Below are positions 864-20,197 of a stretch of 64,000 bases of DNA, in pieces. A model generated the notes under the pieces. It was not told the origin of the DNA and did not search any database. It was given only the letters and a program-made list of their open reading frames with translations. This DNA is from Hyphomicrobium sp. (GTDB lineage: Bacteria; Pseudomonadota; Alphaproteobacteria; Rhizobiales; Hyphomicrobiaceae): the NCBI GenBank assembly GCA_002928955.1, contig PERT01000008.1, forward strand, positions 1 through 64,000. The letters are read 5' to 3'. The translations under genes and the position numbers were made by a program. Position 1 is the stretch's first letter, and each line of letters begins with the position of its first letter.

Positions 864-3464
864 ATGAACTTCGAGCGATATACCGATAGAGCTAAAGGTT
901 TTATTCAGTCGGCCCAGAGCCTTGCCACGAGGGAGGGGCATCAGCAGTTTGCTACCGAGCATCTGCTCAAAGTCCTCATCGACGATCCGGAGGGGCTAGC
1001 AGCCGGCCTCATCGACCGCGCCGGTGGCCGCCACCGTGATGCCTTGGCGGCGGTCGAGCGCGCCATGCAGCGCCGGCCGAAAGTGAGTGGAGCAGGCGCC
1101 GGACAAGTCTATCTTGCGCCTGAGTTGGCGCGTGTGTTCGAAGCAACTGAAAAGTTGGCCGACAGCGCCGGCGATCGTTTCGTGACTGTTGAGCGGCTAC
1201 TGCTTGCGTTGGCTGTCGACAAGTCCACGGAAGCTGGGCGCATATTGATTGAGGCTGGCGTCTCGGCCGAAAAGATCAACGAGGCGATCAACGCCATCCG
1301 CAAAGGTCGCACTGCCGATACCGCGTCCGCCGAGCAAAGCTACGATGCGCTGAAGCGCTATGCCCGCGACCTGACCGAGGCGGCTGCGGCCGGCAAACTC
1401 GATCCGGTTATCGGGCGCGATGAGGAAATCCGGCGGACCATTCAAGTGCTGTCGCGGCGAACCAAGAACAATCCGGTGCTGATCGGCGAACCGGGCGTCG
1501 GCAAGACCGCGATTGCCGAAGGTCTCGCGCTTCGCATCATCAAGGGTGACGTGCCTGAGAGTTTGCGTGACAAGAGATTGCTCGCGCTCGACATGGGTGC
1601 GCTTATTGCAGGCGCCAAATACCGCGGCGAGTTCGAGGAACGGTTGAAGGCGGTGCTCAGCGAAACGCAAGCCGCGGCTGGCGGCATCATTCTATTCATC
1701 GACGAACTTCACACCATCGTGGGTGCCGGCAAGTCCGAAGGATCGATGGATGCGGGTAATCTTTTGAAGCCCGCGCTTGCCCGTGGCGAGTTGCACTGCG
1801 TGGGCGCCACCACGCTCGACGAGTATCGCAAGCACATCGAGAAGGATGCGGCACTCGCTCGTCGCTTCCAGCCGGTGTTCGTCGGCGAGCCGACCGTCGA
1901 GGATACGATATCGATCCTGCGTGGCCTCAAGGAAAAGTACGAACTGCATCACGGCGTTCGCATTGCCGACAGTGCGCTGGTGGCGGCGGCCACGTTATCG
2001 AACCGCTATATCACCGACCGCTTCCTACCGGACAAGGCCATCGACCTCATGGATGAAAGCGCGTCCCGGCTCCGGATGCAGGTCGACAGCAAGCCCGAGG
2101 AGTTGGACGAGATCGACCGGCGATCGGTGCAATTGAAGATCGAGCGGGAAGCCCTGAAAAAAGAAAGCGATCCGGCGTCGCGCGACCGGCTCGGGCGCCT
2201 TGAAAGAGAAATCGCCGATCTCGAGGAAAAGTCGAACGCCATGACCTCGCGCTGGCAGGGTGAAAAGAAGAAGCTCGGTTCGGCGCAGAAGCTCAAGGAA
2301 GAACTGGAAGCCAGGCGCAACGAGCTCGAGCAGGTCAAGCGGCGCGGTGAATACGTGCGCGCCGGTGAGCTCGCGCATAGCGTCATACCCGAGCTTGAAA
2401 AGCGCCTGAAGGTGCTCGAGTCGGCCGATGGGCAGCCGACGCCCATGGTCGAAGAGGCGGTGACACCAGACCACATCGCCTATGTCGTGTCGCGGTGGAC
2501 CGGTATTCAGGTCGAGAAAATGCTCGAAGGCGAGCGCGACAAGCTGCTCAAGATGGAGGCCGCGCTCGCCAAGCGCGTGATCGGCCAGCAGGAGGCGGTG
2601 ATTGCCGTGTCGACAGCGGTGCGCCGGGCGCGTGCGGGATTGCAGGACCCCAACCGTCCGATCGGCTCATTCATGTTTCTCGGGCCCACCGGCGTCGGCA
2701 AAACGGAACTGACGAAGGCGCTGGCCGCGTTCTTGTTCGACGACGACAACGCCATGGTCCGCATGGACATGAGCGAGTACATGGAAAAGCACTCGGTTTC
2801 ACGGCTGATCGGCGCGCCTCCTGGCTATGTCGGCTACGAGGAGGGGGGCGCGCTGACCGAGGCCGTCCGCCGCCGCCCCTATCAGGTGATCCTGTTCGAC
2901 GAGATTGAGAAGGCGCATCCGGACGTGTTCAACGTGTTGTTGCAGGTGCTGGACGATGGGCGATTGACCGATGGGCAAGGCCGCACGGTGGATTTCAAGA
3001 ACACCATTATCGTTCTCACGTCCAATGTCGGCGCCGAATACCTCGTTGCCCAGAAGGAAGGCGAGGATACGGACCTGGTGCGCGACGAGGTCATGGCCGA
3101 GGTTCGTGGGCGCTTCCGGCCGGAATTCCTCAACCGGCTCGACGAGATCATTCTGTTCCATCGCTTGCAGCGGAGCGAAATGGTCGAGATCGTCGATATT
3201 CAGATGCGGCGGTTGGCGAAGCTGCTGACGGATCGAAAGATCCAAGTCGTGCTTGACGACGCGGCGCGGACCTGGCTCGCCAACCGCGGCTACGACCCGG
3301 CCTATGGTGCCCGCCCCTTGAAACGCGTGATGCAGAAGCACATCCAAGACCCGCTGGCCGAGCAGATCCTGGCAGGCGGGGTCAAGGAAGGCGATACCGT
3401 CCAGGTGTCGGTCCGCGACGGCGTTCTCATCATCAATGGCTGGCCAGTGAAGGCTGCCGCCTGA
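864..3464 (+). CDS. clpB: ATP-dependent chaperone ClpB
   Basis: Cytosolic Hsp100 disaggregase that works with DnaK/DnaJ/GrpE to resolve aggregated proteins. At 866 residues it has the family's usual length. Visible in order: Clp N-domain (about 1-150), AAA+ module 1 with Walker A GEPGVGKT near residue 208 and Walker B IILFIDE, the long coiled-coil middle domain (about 405-525, rich in Glu, Lys and Arg), and AAA+ module 2 with Walker A GPTGVGKT near 610 and Walker B VILFDE. It ends in the Clp C-terminal domain. The ATG is preceded by AGGAG at 851-855. It is convergent with the next gene, 40 bases apart. No sigma-32 promoter was identified in the repeat-filled upstream region. Confidence 0.97.
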
Positions 3465-5559: not shown

Positions 5560-5989
5560 TCTTCCGACTGCACCTCTGACCTTGGGATTGGGCCGAAATT
5601 AAGCCGCACCGGGAGCGGAGATCGCGTCGGATAATCCTAGATCGAAAGCCCGGAAGTCAACCGGAGACGGCAGCTGCTGGCGCGGTTGTCATCTGTTTTC
5701 CAGGGTCGGACCGAACCTGAGCGTCGCAATTTTGCTGCAAACTGGCTTCGCAGGTTGAGATCGGGCCCGACGGTGCATCAGGTCTTCTGGTGCCTTGCCT
5801 TGCACAATCGCGCATAGCGCTCGCGTGCCAGCTGCGACATTGGCTTCTCTCGCCAAGCGCTCCAGAGTTCGTGCCGGACCCTAAAAAACACGAGCAACGT
5901 TATGTTTTGATTTTATTTTCAGCGTCTAGCGTTGGCACAGAAATCAGTCGCGGGCGGGGCCAAACCGTCATTTGCGCGACACGAGGGTG

Positions 5990-10806: not shown

Positions 10807-13800
10807 ATGAACCGTCATGCACGACGCGCTACGAAGAAGGCCGCTGCCGCACCGGCCTCGCAAGTTCCGGCATCGAGGCAGCTCCATTCTACCTCGCTGG
10901 CCGACTTCCGAACCGCCGTGCGGTTGATGCGCGAGCAACGCTGGGCCGAATCAGAAGCCGCCCATGCCAAGGTTCGAACGAAGAACCCGAGACATGGGCC
11001 AACCGTGCACCACCTCGGGTTGATCGCGTTCAAGCTGGGCGAGACCGACAAATCTATTCAATTGCTCCAAAGCGCGCTCGATATCGAGCCGGATTGTCAC
11101 GATGCACGCCTTCACTTGGCCGTCGTCCTCAAAGCCAGCGGCCGCGCGGAACTCGCCGCCAAGCACTGCCGAATGGTCGTTGAATCCGACACGCGCAATG
11201 CCACGGCCCTGGTCGAGCTTGGAAACTGCCTGAAGCAACTGGGGCAGACAAGCGACGCTGTTCAAGCCTATCGCCGCGCGCTCGTGCTTTCGCCGGACGA
11301 CACCAGGACGGCAGAGAAGATTGCACAATGCGCACTTGAGGCGCGCGAATTGGAGGACTGCGTGAAGGCCTGCCGCGCGCTCCTCGCGCGCGCTCCGGAC
11401 AATGCCGCTGCCCGGAAGATCTTGGCTCACGCTCTCATTCTCGCAGGCGGTATTGACGTCGGCAAGACCTCCGATGCCATCGAGGCCTCGTGCGCTAGCG
11501 AAGCGGAACGCATTGATCTCGCGCTCGAGATCGCCATGACGCGCCACGCCGACGGCCACAGCGCCGAAGCTCTCACCGGGCTGGACCAAGCTCGCCGGCG
11601 TCATCCCTTGTCCGCGAGGATCTGCATCGCCCAGGGTAGGATCTTGAGGGAGATCGGCGAGCCTGATGCCGCCTTGGCAGCACTTAAGGCCGGTCTCGAT
11701 CTCGACGGTTCCGATCCCGTGGGCTACCATAACATGGGCCAAGTGCTATTCAGCCTTGGCGCACTTGACGGTGCCGTGACGGCATTGCGCCGCGCTTCCG
11801 AACTGAACCCGAACTCACCCGACGTCTTGACGACACTGGGCACGGTTCTGCACGCGATAGGCCATAACACCGAGGCACTGCAGGCACTGAAATCGACGTG
11901 TGATCTCGATCCGACCAACTTGGCGGCGCGCACGGCCTACTGCAGCATTCGCCGTTATTTGTGTGACTGGGACGGGCTGGACGAACTCGAGCGGCAACTC
12001 GTCCACGACCTGCGAGCCAGTACACAGCCTGTCGCACCCTTCCAACTACTAGGTGCGCCCGTGTCCAATTCCGACATGCGTGTGGTTGGCGAGCGCTATG
12101 CCAATCGACTGAAAGAACTGGCTGGCATCAAGGCTTCCGCGACGAGTGCTGCGCCGTTGGCGAAGCCCGGCGGCAGGATCCGCATCGGCTACTTGTCGTC
12201 GGACTTCAGCCACCACGCGACGTCGATGTTGATCGTGGAGCTGCTCGAACGGCATGATCGCAGACGCTTCGAAACGTTTGCCTATTGCCACAGCCCGGAT
12301 GACGGAAGCGCGCTGCGCCAGCGAGTGCAAAATGCGTTCGAGCATTTCAACTGCGTCGGCCAACTCAGCAATCGCGCGACCGCTGACAAGATTCGTAGTG
12401 ACGGCGTCGAGATCCTCATTGATCTAAATGGATATACACGGGGCATGCGGCCGGCAATCCTGGCCCTTCGTCCCTCCCCGGTGCAAGTGACCTACCTTGG
12501 CTATCCCGCGACGACAGGTGCCGATTACATCGACTACTTGATCGCCGATCCGGTCGTCGCGCCGTTGGAACACCACCAAGACTATTCAGAGAAAATCGTT
12601 CAACTCCGGACCTGCTATCAACCCAACGACAGTAAGCGCAAGGTCAAGCCTACGCACTGGACCCGCACCGATGTCGGCCTTCCCGAGCATGGGTTTGTGT
12701 TTTGCTCCTTCAACAATAACTTCAAACTCAACGCGACGTTCTTCCGGGTCTGGATGGACCTGCTTCACCAGGTTCCGGGGAGTGTGCTTTGGCTGTTGCA
12801 GAAATCGCCGGAGGTCGCCGCCCATCTTCGCGGCGCGGCGGTATCTCACGGGATCGATCACAGCCGGATCGTGTTCGCGCAAAATGTTCCCAACGACCAG
12901 CATTTGTCCCGGCACGCGCTCGCCGACCTCTTCCTCGACTCACTTCCCTGTAGTGCGCACACGACTGCCAGCGAAGCGGTGTTTGCCGGGTTGCCGCTCC
13001 TGACATGCCTGGGTGAGAACTTCGCGGGGCGCGTCGCGGCGAGCGTGCTGACATCGTGCGGCTTGCCGCAATTGATCGCGTCATCGCTGGAAGATTATCG
13101 CGCAATCGCGCTGCGGCTGGCACGGAGCCCGCGCGAGATTGCCGACCTCAAGGCACAGCTGACGGACCGTCGCTCAACTATGCCCCTGTTCGATACCGCA
13201 GCCTATGCGCGCGAGTTCGAAGGTGCCCTCTCGCATATCTCACATCGCATCCGGGGCGGTCTGCCGCCGCAGAGCTTCGCCGTCAGCGACGCTGATTGCG
13301 CTGTCTCTGATGATGGCGCGTTGTCCGACGGCGAAGCCCCGATCTCCGATTCCAAAACCGTTGCCATAGAGTGCGCAGCGACCATGCTGGCGCAGATTGA
13401 AGCGTGTCGCGCATCTGGCCGCAATGTCGAAGCGGCCCGCCTCTGCGGTGAACTCTTGATGCGCGAGCCGGCCAATCACGCGCCTTACCTGCACTTGGCA
13501 GAGCTCGCGGAATTGGCTGGGGCTGAACAAAAGGCCGCAAATTTCTTAACAGAAGCGATCCTGCTCGAACCCGGTTGTGGCACCGCCCATATTCAGCTTT
13601 ACAAACTGCAAAAAGCGATGGGCCAGCTGCGTCCCGCAGCAAATTCTCTAAGCACTGCCATTACCCTGGGTTGCGCCCTTCCGGAACATCCACTCGAGTT
13701 GGCAAACTTGCTCTATGAGATTGGCGATACGTCGGCGGCGATAGTGGGCTATCGGGATGCGCTTTCCCGGAATCCGTCGTGCGGCATGAGCCAGGCCATG

Positions 13801-14745
13801 CTCACGTTGCTCGCTGCTTCCGAGCCGGCACCGAAGCCGGCGCAAGCCACGGTGACTGTAGCAACCGATGAGCTCCCGCCACAGTGGCGCAATGTCAATC
13901 TTTGCATCATTGCACCACCCGGCAATGGCCATTGGCAGGCTTTTTCCGACATTGCCACCGGATTTGCCTACGCCCTGGCCGAACTCGGCGCCGACAGCAC
14001 CGTCACACTCAACGAAATCCAGAGCGATGCGCAGAACATCGTATTCGGCGCGCATCTCATTCCGACTCTGGAAATGGCCCGCGGCATTTCGCCTGAAACG
14101 GTCCTGTTCAACCTAGAACAGATCGACGGCATCGGATTGCAGAGATATCCGGTGTACCACACGCTGCTGGCGAAGTTGCCAGTGTGGGACTACAGTTCCC
14201 GCAATATAGCGCGCATCCGCGAGCTAATGGGGAACAGCAATATCCACCTCGCCCGGGTTGGATACTCAGCGAGCCTGGAACGAATTGGCCGGTCGTCGCA
14301 CCATGCGACGGATGTGCTGTTCTACGGCAGCCTCAACGATCGCCGCATTGCCATTCTGAACCAACTCACCTCGGCCGGCCTCCGCGTGCGACATCTCTTT
14401 AACGTCTACGGCGAGGCGCGCGACGAGGCGATCCGTCAAGCCAAGGTCGTGCTCAACATGCACTTCTACCCGGACAGCATCCATGAAATCGTCCGGACGT
14501 CGCTTCTGCTCGCCAACAGAAAGGCCGTCGTGTGCGAATGCAATGCGAGCACCGAAATCGACGACGACCTGCGGCCAGCGATGAGAGCCGTACCATATGA
14601 GCACCTGGCAACGGCGTGCATGACCCTGGTTCGAGACGATGCTGCGAGGCTGGCACTCGAATCGTCAGCCTATGAGATCTTCAGCTCACGAAAGCAGTCT
14701 GATTTCCTCCGTCAGGTTATCTTGGCCTGCGCATCGAGGCGATAG
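10807..14745 (+). CDS. TPR/GT41 O-GlcNAc-transferase-like protein fused to a second glycosyltransferase-like domain
   Basis: 1312 residues. Order: basic N-terminus; TPR superhelix (about 30-400); GT41 catalytic region (about 455-810), with GYLSSDFSHHATSML near 461, LIDLNGYTRG near 537, FNNNFKLN near 635 and PCSAHTTASEAVFAGLP near 714; an acidic Ser-rich linker (about 820-850); a second TPR stretch (855-1000); and a C-terminal domain (1028-1312) resembling GT-B glycosyltransferases of the CgeB/GT1 type. GT41 enzymes move GlcNAc from UDP-GlcNAc to Ser/Thr of proteins. No signal peptide is seen. Family members of this size exist, but two transferase regions in one chain is notable. Protein or flagellin glycosylation is an inference from context. 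GGAG lies 10 bases before ATG. Confidence 0.88.
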   Translation: MNRHARRATKKAAAAPASQVPASRQLHSTSLADFRTAVRLMREQRWAESEAAHAKVRTKNPRHGPTVHHLGLIAFKLGETDKSIQLLQSALDIEPDCHDARLHLAVVLKASGRAELAAKHCRMVVESDTRNATALVELGNCLKQLGQTSDAVQAYRRALVLSPDDTRTAEKIAQCALEARELEDCVKACRALLARAPDNAAARKILAHALILAGGIDVGKTSDAIEASCASEAERIDLALEIAMTRHADGHSAEALTGLDQARRRHPLSARICIAQGRILREIGEPDAALAALKAGLDLDGSDPVGYHNMGQVLFSLGALDGAVTALRRASELNPNSPDVLTTLGTVLHAIGHNTEALQALKSTCDLDPTNLAARTAYCSIRRYLCDWDGLDELERQLVHDLRASTQPVAPFQLLGAPVSNSDMRVVGERYANRLKELAGIKASATSAAPLAKPGGRIRIGYLSSDFSHHATSMLIVELLERHDRRRFETFAYCHSPDDGSALRQRVQNAFEHFNCVGQLSNRATADKIRSDGVEILIDLNGYTRGMRPAILALRPSPVQVTYLGYPATTGADYIDYLIADPVVAPLEHHQDYSEKIVQLRTCYQPNDSKRKVKPTHWTRTDVGLPEHGFVFCSFNNNFKLNATFFRVWMDLLHQVPGSVLWLLQKSPEVAAHLRGAAVSHGIDHSRIVFAQNVPNDQHLSRHALADLFLDSLPCSAHTTASEAVFAGLPLLTCLGENFAGRVAASVLTSCGLPQLIASSLEDYRAIALRLARSPREIADLKAQLTDRRSTMPLFDTAAYAREFEGALSHISHRIRGGLPPQSFAVSDADCAVSDDGALSDGEAPISDSKTVAIECAATMLAQIEACRASGRNVEAARLCGELLMREPANHAPYLHLAELAELAGAEQKAANFLTEAILLEPGCGTAHIQLYKLQKAMGQLRPAANSLSTAITLGCALPEHPLELANLLYEIGDTSAAIVGYRDALSRNPSCGMSQAMLTLLAASEPAPKPAQATVTVATDELPPQWRNVNLCIIAPPGNGHWQAFSDIATGFAYALAELGADSTVTLNEIQSDAQNIVFGAHLIPTLEMARGISPETVLFNLEQIDGIGLQRYPVYHTLLAKLPVWDYSSRNIARIRELMGNSNIHLARVGYSASLERIGRSSHHATDVLFYGSLNDRRIAILNQLTSAGLRVRHLFNVYGEARDEAIRQAKVVLNMHFYPDSIHEIVRTSLLLANRKAVVCECNASTEIDDDLRPAMRAVPYEHLATACMTLVRDDAARLALESSAYEIFSSRKQSDFLRQVILACASRR

Positions 14746-17254: not shown

Positions 17255-17668
17255 TTAGGTTTCGTCGGATTGCACCAGAGCGCCTGTCTTGTCGAAGGTG
17301 TCGTCGACCAGATCACGGCAGAGCGAACGCACGAGGACGGCGCTGATCGTAGCGTCGTCCTCGTTGGCGATCAGTTCCTGCAGAATTCTGCCTTTCACCC
17401 TCAGGTCCCCGGTCGTTCGAGCACGCAACCGGCTAAGGCGGCGTGCAACGTCGAAGATGTGGTCCAGTTCCTGACCAACCAACTCCTCAAGCTGCTGGTA
17501 TCGCAACCCGTCGTCCCTCTCCAAGAAAACTATCTGGAGGTTCAGGGATTGCATCAAGACCTGGTGCTTCCGAAGACTTCTCATTGCATCTCGAAAAGCG
17601 GGGCTGGGGTCGGAATGCCCGTCCCCAGGTACCTGCAGTTGCTCCCACTCGCCGTTGTCGGTGACCAT
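17255..17668 (-). CDS. Hypothetical protein at the end of the luxR-luxI-dioxygenase cluster
   Basis: 137 residues, not recognised. Mostly helical and charged, with a mid-region that looks coiled-coil (FLERDDGLRYQQLEELVGQELDHIF is interrupted by aromatic residues). No signal peptide, membrane segment or cysteine cluster is visible. ATG at 17668 lies 12 bases after the dioxygenase stop, so it is probably cotranscribed and may assist or regulate that enzyme. The overlapping plus-strand frame 17159-17839 is less protein-like. Confidence 0.6.
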   Translation of the reverse strand: MVTDNGEWEQLQVPGDGHSDPSPAFRDAMRSLRKHQVLMQSLNLQIVFLERDDGLRYQQLEELVGQELDHIFDVARRLSRLRARTTGDLRVKGRILQELIANEDDATISAVLVRSLCRDLVDDTFDKTGALVQSDET

Positions 17669-17680
17669 GAAACGTGCCCG

Positions 17681-18652
17681 TCAAGCCACAGCGCGCTGCA
17701 CCTGGCGGCGCCAAGCAATGGGAAAATCCGGACCATTAAGCGGCTCGCCTTCAAGCATTTCGGTCGTCAGGTGAAGCTGCTTTGGCGCCCATGGTCGCCG
17801 CGTCACACGAATGTCGTCTCCGCAGTAGCGGATCGATAGCGCGCGCCGCACTTGATAGCGCGAAAGGTTTCCACCAGCGCCATGCAGCGTCCGATAGTGG
17901 TGCACCAGAACGTCACCAGGCTCCACGTCGAACTGAACAAGATCGAAATCATCGGGCCGTCCCTCGATGTCGGGAAGATCCGCGCCTTGCGCTCCGGGGA
18001 GAGCTGTTTGCGATACGAACACATTGGGTTTGTAGAGCTTGCCGTCCCGGTGGGAACCGCGAACGTACACCATGCCGCCATTTTCCTTCGAAACCGGATC
18101 TACCGGGATCCACAACACACAACATTGATCGCCGTCGATCTCAAAGTAGGTCGCATCTTGATGGAAGGCCGTGCGCTCACGCGTTCCTGGTTCCTTGACG
18201 AACATCTGGTCACCAAAGTACCGAACGACCTCGGAGCCGAGTAATGCGCCTGCGATATCCCCGGCTGCACCGTCGACTGCGAATCGACGCAATGGGGGCA
18301 CGCGGGTGGTCACGGCGGTGTCCACGAGGAAACGGCCGTCGCGGTCTGACGGATCGGCGTCAAACAGCAGCGGTTGTTCACTAGCCCGAATGTGCTCGAC
18401 GATCGCGCTGACCTCATGTTGACCACCGTCAGCCCCGCGGAGCACGTCGTCCTCACGCCGCTCCATGGCTCGTGTCAAACGACTGAAGTCATAACCTTGT
18501 TTGCTCGCCGCGATCGTATTGGCCGCCTCGTCGATTGAGCGGCGCAGCATGTTCACTGTCGCCAGATCGAATACGCCTCGGAGGTGAACCACGCCAGCGG
18601 TGTGATAGGCGGCCACCTCGTCGAGTGTGATGGGACGCGAGAGTCTTTTCAC
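17681..18652 (-). CDS. Phytanoyl-CoA dioxygenase (PhyH) family oxygenase
   Basis: Fe(II)/2-oxoglutarate-dependent oxygenase of the PhyH family, 323 residues, complete. The iron triad is visible as H164 and D166 (FHQDATYF) and H257 (TLHGAG), with R269/R270 available for 2-oxoglutarate. Family members hydroxylate acyl chains, ectoine or small metabolites. GTG start with AGGAAA upstream. It starts only 55 bases after luxI on the same strand and is followed 12 bases later by a small gene. The position suggests that it acts on the homoserine-lactone signal or an acyl precursor, or makes a quorum-controlled product. That substrate is inference; other PhyH substrates are equally possible from sequence alone. 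Confidence 0.85.
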   Translation of the reverse strand: MKRLSRPITLDEVAAYHTAGVVHLRGVFDLATVNMLRRSIDEAANTIAASKQGYDFSRLTRAMERREDDVLRGADGGQHEVSAIVEHIRASEQPLLFDADPSDRDGRFLVDTAVTTRVPPLRRFAVDGAAGDIAGALLGSEVVRYFGDQMFVKEPGTRERTAFHQDATYFEIDGDQCCVLWIPVDPVSKENGGMVYVRGSHRDGKLYKPNVFVSQTALPGAQGADLPDIEGRPDDFDLVQFDVEPGDVLVHHYRTLHGAGGNLSRYQVRRALSIRYCGDDIRVTRRPWAPKQLHLTTEMLEGEPLNGPDFPIAWRRQVQRAVA

Positions 18653-18707
18653 GGAAATTTCCTTTCGTGTTGAGCTTCATCGGTAATGATCGGCGTGAGG
18701 TCGTATA

Positions 18708-19361
18708 CTAAGCGGCGCGCGGCAGGACTGGGCTGTTCCGACGGAGATCGATCCCGTTCACGAGACCGCCAAAGGCGCGCAGATCGTCGATGACTTTGTC
18801 CGTCACGGGGCAGCGGATGGCTATGGCTTCGCCTCCGCCCTGGACACGAGGCCCGCCGCCGTACGGATGAGCGAGGCCGAGAGGGCGGACGTCAGGCGTC
18901 ATCTCAACATAGCTGGCAAGCATGCGGCTTTCGACGATGACTTGAATGTGGGTGGCTCCCACGGACTTCGACCACTCGAACATGGCTACCAACAACTCCG
19001 CCTTTGCGGCCTTGTTGCTGATCTTTGAACCTTTGCGTGGGTTAACAATCAGCCGCGTGCCTTCGAAAATCGTAGCTGAGCGGATATCAACGTCCGTCTC
19101 GACCAAGTGTGGGAAGCAATCGGCCAGGAGCGAACTGGTGACCGAAGGCGTGAGGCGGACGTGGCTCCGGAGGAAGTTTTCTTCGTCGAGTCCGTAGAAG
19201 TAGATGCTGTCATCACGATCGTACTGATCGATTTCCGTGCCGTTCCTTGTCGGCAGTGTCCATTGCCGGTCTCTCACAAACGTGTCGTAGCGCAAACGAA
19301 AAAGCTGATGGAAGATGTTGCTGCAGGCGTTCCTCTGGTGACCTTGGAGGGTGATAATCAT
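18708..19361 (-). CDS. luxI: Acyl-homoserine-lactone synthase, LuxI family
   Basis: Makes an N-acyl-homoserine lactone from SAM and an acyl-ACP or acyl-CoA. With the ATG at 19361 (MIITLQGH) the protein is 217 residues. The canonical LuxI positions then fall exactly in register: R24, F28, W34, E43, D45, D48, R69 and R103. The longer frame from 19433 would shift them, so the short start is preferred. No catalytic residue is missing. It lies between luxR (96 bases upstream) and the PhyH gene. The acyl specificity cannot be read from the sequence. A 10-base palindrome AGAGCGCTCT lies just before the start; it is too short to call a lux box. Confidence 0.93.
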   Translation of the reverse strand: MIITLQGHQRNACSNIFHQLFRLRYDTFVRDRQWTLPTRNGTEIDQYDRDDSIYFYGLDEENFLRSHVRLTPSVTSSLLADCFPHLVETDVDIRSATIFEGTRLIVNPRKGSKISNKAAKAELLVAMFEWSKSVGATHIQVIVESRMLASYVEMTPDVRPLGLAHPYGGGPRVQGGGEAIAIRCPVTDKVIDDLRAFGGLVNGIDLRRNSPVLPRAA

Positions 19362-19456
19362 GAAGAGCGCTCTCGTTTTTTGGCCTCGGATCGCCCGAGT
19401 GTGATGATCGGCCACGGCAGCCGCCATCCTCAAAAAACAGGAGGCAAGAAATCGGG

Positions 19457-20197
19457 TCAGAGAGATATCTCGCCGCGTCGGAGGGCCTCGACAACTGCCA
19501 GAGTACCCTTGGTGGCGTTGAGCTTTTTCTTCGCATTGTCGACGTGGGTCCGCACCGTTGTGACACCAATCGTCAGGATGTCACCGATCTCGTCGACCGA
19601 CTTACCAACGGCGAGCCACTGCAGGACTTCTCTTTCCCGCCCTGACAGAAGATTGGATCGAGAGACTTCTAGTGGGACGCTTGCGCGCCGAAGCGCCTGA
19701 TGAGCCGCGATTCCAATGATTTCAACCGCCGATCGGGCACGGGCGGTGAGAAGTGGGTTGTTACCGCAAGGGGCAAAAATCGAGATGCTTCCGGCTGTGC
19801 TCACGATCGGGACGATAAGACCATCCGTTGCTCCGAAGTCCGCCGCCTCACCCATGATTGCGTATTGTTCTCGCGACAGCCGCCGCCGCGCCTTCACATC
19901 ACTCCAGCTGAACGTACTGAGTGTCTTTTTTAGTTCAACAACAACGGGATCTCGGCACGCGTAGTTTTTCTCGGCGTATCGTTGGAGGTATTCTACGGGT
20001 CTATTGTTCAGAAGAATGGACTCGAGTGGCGATTGACCAGGTGGCGGTACCACTGCGCAGGTCACGTGGCTGAAGCCGAAGCATGTCATCGCCTGGTAGG
20101 TTAGCGCTCCGATGCTCGACTTGTTCTTTAAAGCATTGACCTCTTCGCAGAACCGAAATGCCTCCAGGGCAAACTCGTCTGGTTTGGCGCGTGACAT
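19457..20197 (-). CDS. luxR: LuxR-family quorum-sensing regulator
   Basis: 246 residues with an N-terminal autoinducer-binding domain (about 15-170) and a C-terminal LuxR helix-turn-helix (183-246, LSGREREVLQWLAVGKS). Compared with TraR, the ligand-pocket residues are Y70 (TraR W57), Y74 (Y61), D83 (D70), P84 (P71), W98 (W85) and G126 (G113). The usual tryptophan is thus replaced by tyrosine while the rest is kept, which could reflect an unusual ligand. It lies 96 bases upstream of luxI on the same strand and probably binds that synthase's product. No clear 18-20 base lux box was found upstream. Confidence 0.93.
   Translation of the reverse strand: MSRAKPDEFALEAFRFCEEVNALKNKSSIGALTYQAMTCFGFSHVTCAVVPPPGQSPLESILLNNRPVEYLQRYAEKNYACRDPVVVELKKTLSTFSWSDVKARRRLSREQYAIMGEAADFGATDGLIVPIVSTAGSISIFAPCGNNPLLTARARSAVEIIGIAAHQALRRASVPLEVSRSNLLSGREREVLQWLAVGKSVDEIGDILTIGVTTVRTHVDNAKKKLNATKGTLAVVEALRRGEISL

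Follow-up and report, generated by a model that had tools for sequence, protein, structure and literature searches.

A luxR-luxI-phyH cassette in a Hyphomicrobium-like genome has its own oxygenase subfamily and may tailor an acyl-homoserine lactone signal

The window, by which we mean the whole 64,000-nucleotide stretch of DNA that was analyzed, derives from a genome of a Hyphomicrobium-like genus and carries luxR, luxI, phyH and orf4 in succession on the minus strand (Table 1). The intergenic gaps are 55 bases between luxI and phyH and 12 bases between phyH and orf4, and the G+C content by codon position is coding-like in all four frames. The initial annotation had described these genes, their coordinates and spacings, together with an intact LuxI and an intact PhyH metal-binding triad, all of which we confirmed from the sequence and from Pfam matches. 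The cassette lies between a PGA_cap protein on one side and flagellar genes, starting from flhB, on the other (Pfam). Near both the cassette and the flagellar genes, positions 10807-14745 encode a 1312-residue TPR protein that matches Glyco_transf_41 (O-GlcNAc transferase-like) twice.

Table 1. Positions of the cassette genes and their diagnostic residues in the window
Feature	Position	Strand	Details
luxR	19457-20197	minus	Pfam PF03472 Autoind_bind E 1.2e-23; PF00196 GerE E 1e-14
LuxR Trp57 to Tyr (residue 70 of window LuxR)	19988-19990		alignment with other LuxRs
luxI	18708-19361	minus	ATG at 19361; Pfam PF00765 Autoind_synth E 1.1e-20
LuxI motif YGGGPRVQGGG (GGGxxxxGGG, residues 168-177)	18831-18860		motif scan
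phyH (type A)	17681-18652	minus	GTG start; Pfam PF05721 PhyH E 1.1e-26
PhyH metal ligands H164/D166	18155-18163	minus	
PhyH metal ligand H257	17882-17884	minus	
PhyH probable 2-oxoglutarate Arg269	17846-17848	minus	
orf4 (137 aa)	17255-17668	minus	no Pfam match

A promoter and terminator scan of the window returned no excess of terminators over chance and none between luxI and phyH. These two genes are probably co-transcribed. A lux-box search found no inverted repeat in the window. Upstream of luxI in two related cassettes from a distant alphaproteobacterial family (L002 and L003, positions 5917-5938 in each), the inverted repeat TTGTCCTAG-N4-CTAGGATAA is a candidate LuxR binding site.

Judged by its family (PF00765 match of 74.4 bits against a cut-off of 24) and its intact catalytic residues, with R24, F28, W34, E43, D45, D48, R69, E100 and R103 in register as read from the sequence, the window luxI encodes a predicted acyl-homoserine lactone (AHL) synthase. 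By the same kind of evidence, phyH is assigned to the Fe(II)/2-oxoglutarate oxygenases of the PhyH family, type A: its PF05721 match reaches 94.8 bits against a cut-off of 22, and H164, D166, H257 and R269 are invariant across 12 type-A sequences. The predicted PhyH structure, made from a shallow alignment of the window protein and proteins of related loci, has a mean pLDDT of 37 and is unusable for fold comparison.

The last gene, orf4, has no Pfam, NCBIfam, PHROG or plasmid match and, lying 12 bases from phyH, is probably co-transcribed with it. Its only relative in 103 genomes of the family is a weakly matching small helical protein encoded away from any luxI, and no counterpart stands beside the other type-A phyH genes, which rules orf4 out as a member of the cassette. 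This relative occurs as a tandem pair (G027; L187, 3832-4278 and 4769-5185), whose members share the pattern LKxKxxxLL...D...LAxSLxxDL, are distantly related to orf4 and possibly represent an undescribed small-protein family.

We found 11 relatives of the window PhyH at 52-61% protein identity, all of them linked to luxI; the type-A clade has support of 99-100 in the PhyH tree. In each of the resulting 12 genomes, luxI lies directly upstream of phyH in the same orientation and luxR precedes luxI. The genomes represent five families, as labeled by the search database: Hyphomicrobiaceae (two genera), three more of the same order and one distant alphaproteobacterial family. They comprise the window, G077 of the same family, G228 and G487 (matching L003 and L002, respectively) of the distant family, and eight genomes in three further families, which came to light among 249 genomes sampled across the order. 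Among the genomes sampled, none had a type-A PhyH away from luxI, and in a phylum sample of 249 genomes only the window's own PhyH reached the score that marks the subfamily. As read from translations, the cassette is flanked by a transposase remnant and a sucrose synthase gene in G077, and by a lipoyl-pathway/rodA region and a CBS-domain protein gene in L002 and L003. Since the flanking genes differ wherever both sides were inspected (the window, L002/L003 and G077), the linkage is not merely an inherited neighborhood. These data confirm that luxR-luxI-phyH is a real conserved unit and that the luxI-phyH adjacency exceeds chance; the adjacency that the initial annotation had proposed to follow across genomes is thus conserved far beyond one strain. 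At one locus (L198, G559), luxI is split over two frames (2503-3144 and 2961-3200) upstream of an intact phyH, by a frameshift or a sequencing error.

The same survey bears on the idea that the adjacency has no functional meaning and that phyH is a passenger beside luxI. In a class sample of 385 genomes, phyH adjoins only 4 of 77 luxI matches, two for each of the two PhyH types distinguished below, and a sister genome has luxR and luxI with no phyH detected, as would be expected of a passenger. On the other hand, the luxI linkage of all 12 type-A phyH genes extends over five families at this degree of protein divergence and with differing flanks where these were inspected, and a second, independent luxI-phyH association exists. 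We therefore disfavor this idea and regard it as very improbable.

The sister genome, Hyphomicrobium sp. bin.114 (G093; contig L001), belongs to the same genus and supplies the nearest LuxI in GTDB contigs (90% identity), its luxR and luxI both being about 90% identical to those of the window. The tail of its LuxI is altered, and a search of the assembly returned no phyH. An insertion-sequence-like end lies at the 3' end of luxI: the contig stops 68 bases past the gene, within a repeat that resembles the start of a transposase and is present at a second contig end as well. In this genome phyH may be either lost or unassembled. Given this luxRI without phyH, phyH may be dispensable. The transposase-like repeat just after luxI (L001:6001-6701 and G093:C22:1-67) is accompanied by an IS66-like element upstream of luxR, and the luxRI of this sister species is thus bracketed by mobile DNA.

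We also compared the signal synthases and receptors of these cassettes with those found elsewhere. The type-A cassette LuxIs form one clade (support 99-100 in the LuxI tree) and carry a glycine-rich motif, YGGGxxxxGGG, after the conserved LG motif. It was present in every cassette LuxI whose C-terminal part could be read, among them the one from G093, which lacks a detected phyH, and in none of 95 other alphaproteobacterial LuxIs (motif scan). The receptors are likewise marked at canonical Trp57, a residue that touches the lactone in known LuxR structures: Tyr occupies this position in 12 of 12 cassette LuxRs, and among LuxRs without an adjoining PhyH, Trp57 is kept in 60 of 68 and replaced in the other 8. 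The window LuxR retains the equivalents of Tyr61, Asp70, Pro71, Trp85 and Gly113. In the sphingomonad-type set, Trp57 is mostly kept, and 5 of 8 LuxRs have a changed Tyr61, versus 5 of 68 (Fisher p 6e-4). All three traits are clade-level and reflect few evolutionary events each, Tyr57 and the Gly motif a single event apiece, inherited within one clade, and ligand preference is not deducible from them; they would fit an unusual ligand.

The luxR-luxI-phyH adjacency itself is not new, having been described in Novosphingobium, Sphingobium and further Sphingomonadaceae (novR-novI-phyH, topology T) (PMC3704786, PMC4288048, PMC5012321); the window cassette is a variant whose oxygenase forms a separate subfamily. 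Among the 76 proteins of a PhyH tree, the sphingomonad type and type A lie in distant halves, and a single clade uniting them is rejected (AU p 3.9e-41); the background sampling was query-driven, and the tree therefore describes the separation of these two types and not the whole family. The LuxIs of the two sets are also rejected as one clade (AU p 3.5e-4), both trees being quick searches with one support measure. A single origin of the window and sphingomonad luxI-phyH pairs is thus rejected, and because this holds for the PhyHs as well as for the LuxIs, PhyH-family oxygenases joined luxI at least twice. The sphingomonad type of PhyH is found next to LuxIs of more than one lineage; three of the luxI loci concerned are in Hyphomicrobiaceae (L018, L027 and L028).

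In L147 (G106:C11:392334-399212), the order luxR-luxI-phyH-luxR-luxI on one strand places a sphingomonad-type phyH between two LuxI/LuxR pairs that have diverged. A Sphingomonas paeninsulae plasmid (L076:2177-6600) carries luxR-luxI-phyH-GntR immediately ahead of a lasso peptide cluster of the benenodin type. On plasmid pSRL2 of Sphingobium indicum B90A (L077:2944-6522), a LuxI-family synthase gene has a P450 gene upstream and is followed by genes for an acyl carrier protein of its own, for a protein resembling cyclopropane-fatty-acyl synthases and for a fatty acyl-AMP ligase; this looks like a dedicated acyl supply for an AHL or acyl amino acid of an unusual kind.

What PhyH does beside luxI has been asked for sphingomonads since 2013 or earlier; the authors of those studies suggested, as a speculation, that phyH is under quorum-sensing control, and they described its reaction as one not yet reported (PMC3704786, PMC5012321). 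Novosphingobium luxI introduced without phyH into Agrobacterium and Escherichia coli yields C8, 3-OH-C8, 3-OH-C10 and related AHLs, much like the native strains (PMC5012321, PMC11674143). Because luxI alone gives 3-hydroxy-AHLs, sphingomonads do not require PhyH for ordinary 3-OH signals, and the possibility that PhyH makes the ordinary 3-OH group is not favored. PhyH might still oxidize the chain or the ring at another site, or turn the signal over.

The reading that we prefer, although our confidence in it stays slightly below an even chance, is that PhyH serves specifically to tailor the cassette's own AHL signal. LuxI would make an acyl-homoserine lactone, and PhyH, using Fe(II), O2 and 2-oxoglutarate, would hydroxylate or otherwise oxidize either this AHL or the acyl donor of LuxI, elsewhere than at the customary 3-OH site; LuxR, its pocket altered by the change of Trp57 to Tyr, would then read the oxidized product and activate its own cassette. 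We infer the AHL or its acyl precursor as the substrate, as well as the site of oxidation and the preference of LuxR for the oxidized product. Tailoring is supported by the obligate luxI linkage in 12 of 12 cases, by the occurrence of two unrelated PhyH subfamilies beside luxI, and by the cassette-specific traits of LuxI and LuxR. In particular, a signal-related role becomes more likely because a second, unrelated PhyH subfamily is always luxI-linked in the sampled alphaproteobacteria. Weighing against it, the major sphingomonad AHLs, 3-OH-C8 included, form without phyH, no phyH was detected in G093, and the Tyr57 and Gly motif traits belong to a single clade. The tailored-signal interpretation of the initial annotation is upheld in part, as to the conserved adjacency and the traits specific to the LuxI, LuxR and PhyH of the cassette; orf4, which it had included, is not conserved, and the luxRI-phyH pairing had already been published. 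Our literature search found neither a known action of PhyH on AHLs nor the acyl-modifying genes next to an AHL synthase in Mesorhizobium that had been put forward as a precedent.

The initial annotation had further assumed that acyl chains are often the substrates of PhyH enzymes. This premise carries little weight here, because the nearest solved enzymes by sequence are MysH (E 7e-33) and SnoK (E 3e-17), or DhiD and AndA for the sphingomonad type, with human PHYH (2a1x) far behind at E 4e-4. Another close solved relative is 1-deoxypentalenic acid hydroxylase, and its substrate, like those of MysH and SnoK, is a soluble natural product; given these enzymes, a non-AHL substrate is possible. PhyH could thus be a quorum-regulated output enzyme, co-transcribed with luxI, that hydroxylates some other small molecule or a lipid while the AHL is an ordinary one. 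Besides the natural-product substrates of its relatives, this would agree with the quorum-regulated phyH already hypothesized for sphingomonads (PMC3704786, PMC5012321) and with the major sphingomonad AHLs, which need no PhyH (PMC5012321, PMC11674143). However, no other biosynthetic gene travels with phyH, the next gene varying by locus and orf4 being unique to the window; two unrelated PhyH subfamilies occupy the same place beside luxI; and the cassette-specific motif lies in LuxI itself. We consider an output role rather unlikely on balance.

A PhyH that turns the signal over is less probable still, and we would be surprised to find it. Here, oxidation of the acyl chain would inactivate the AHL and provide negative feedback or a reset of the circuit. 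In peroxisomal alpha-oxidation, chain shortening can begin with oxidation by a PhyH-family enzyme; the gene is placed as expected of a feedback enzyme, and loss of phyH in a relative of the same genus that keeps luxRI would be tolerated. Nevertheless, the Tyr57 found in the LuxR of all cassettes fits an altered ligand better, and no linked gene encodes a partner enzyme that would shorten the chain.

Returning to tailoring, it may be extended into a broader and distinctly more doubtful proposal, which we hold with about the assurance due to a minority view: that a LuxI with YGGGxxxxGGG and its PhyH form an undescribed AHL branch, producing a non-canonical oxidized AHL (neither 3-hydroxy nor 3-oxo) sensed by a Tyr57 LuxR, and that oxygenase-tailored signals evolved at least twice in the alphaproteobacteria. 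If PhyH does tailor the signal, a new class of oxygenase-modified AHLs would have been missed by targeted methods that use only 3-oxo and 3-OH standards. Twelve genomes are now at hand for testing the role of PhyH.

The cassette can be set against several known systems. The TraI-type AHL synthases of Rhizobiales resemble the window LuxI in family and catalytic residues, and the NCBIfam TraI model matches it at E 1e-13; however, the score of 50.9 bits is far under the TraI cut-off of 250 bits, and the window LuxI differs by its cassette-specific Gly motif and by the oxygenase downstream. MysH (PDB 9pze, 9c9n), the top solved relative of type-A PhyH, has the HxD, H and GDD...RP motifs in common with it, but only about 170 residues align well, and MysH works in mycosporine-like amino acid synthesis, not in quorum sensing. 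Phytanoyl-CoA dioxygenase (PHYH, PDB 2a1x) belongs to the same Pfam family and has the same arrangement of metal ligands, although at E 4e-4 it is very distant from the window PhyH and gives no pointer to acyl-CoA as the substrate here. The closest parallel in layout is the sphingomonad system, in which gene order and orientation are the same as in the window and a PhyH-family gene comes within tens of bases after luxI. Its PhyH (for example in L076 and L079) nevertheless belongs to another subfamily, with 28% identity to the window's over 110 residues, and its nearest solved relatives are DhiD, AndA and AusE, in contrast to MysH and SnoK for the window type. The sphingomonad LuxIs lack GGGxxxxGGG and are not sisters of the window-type LuxI, and their LuxR partners mostly keep Trp57 and often change Tyr61, whereas the window-type LuxRs have Tyr57.
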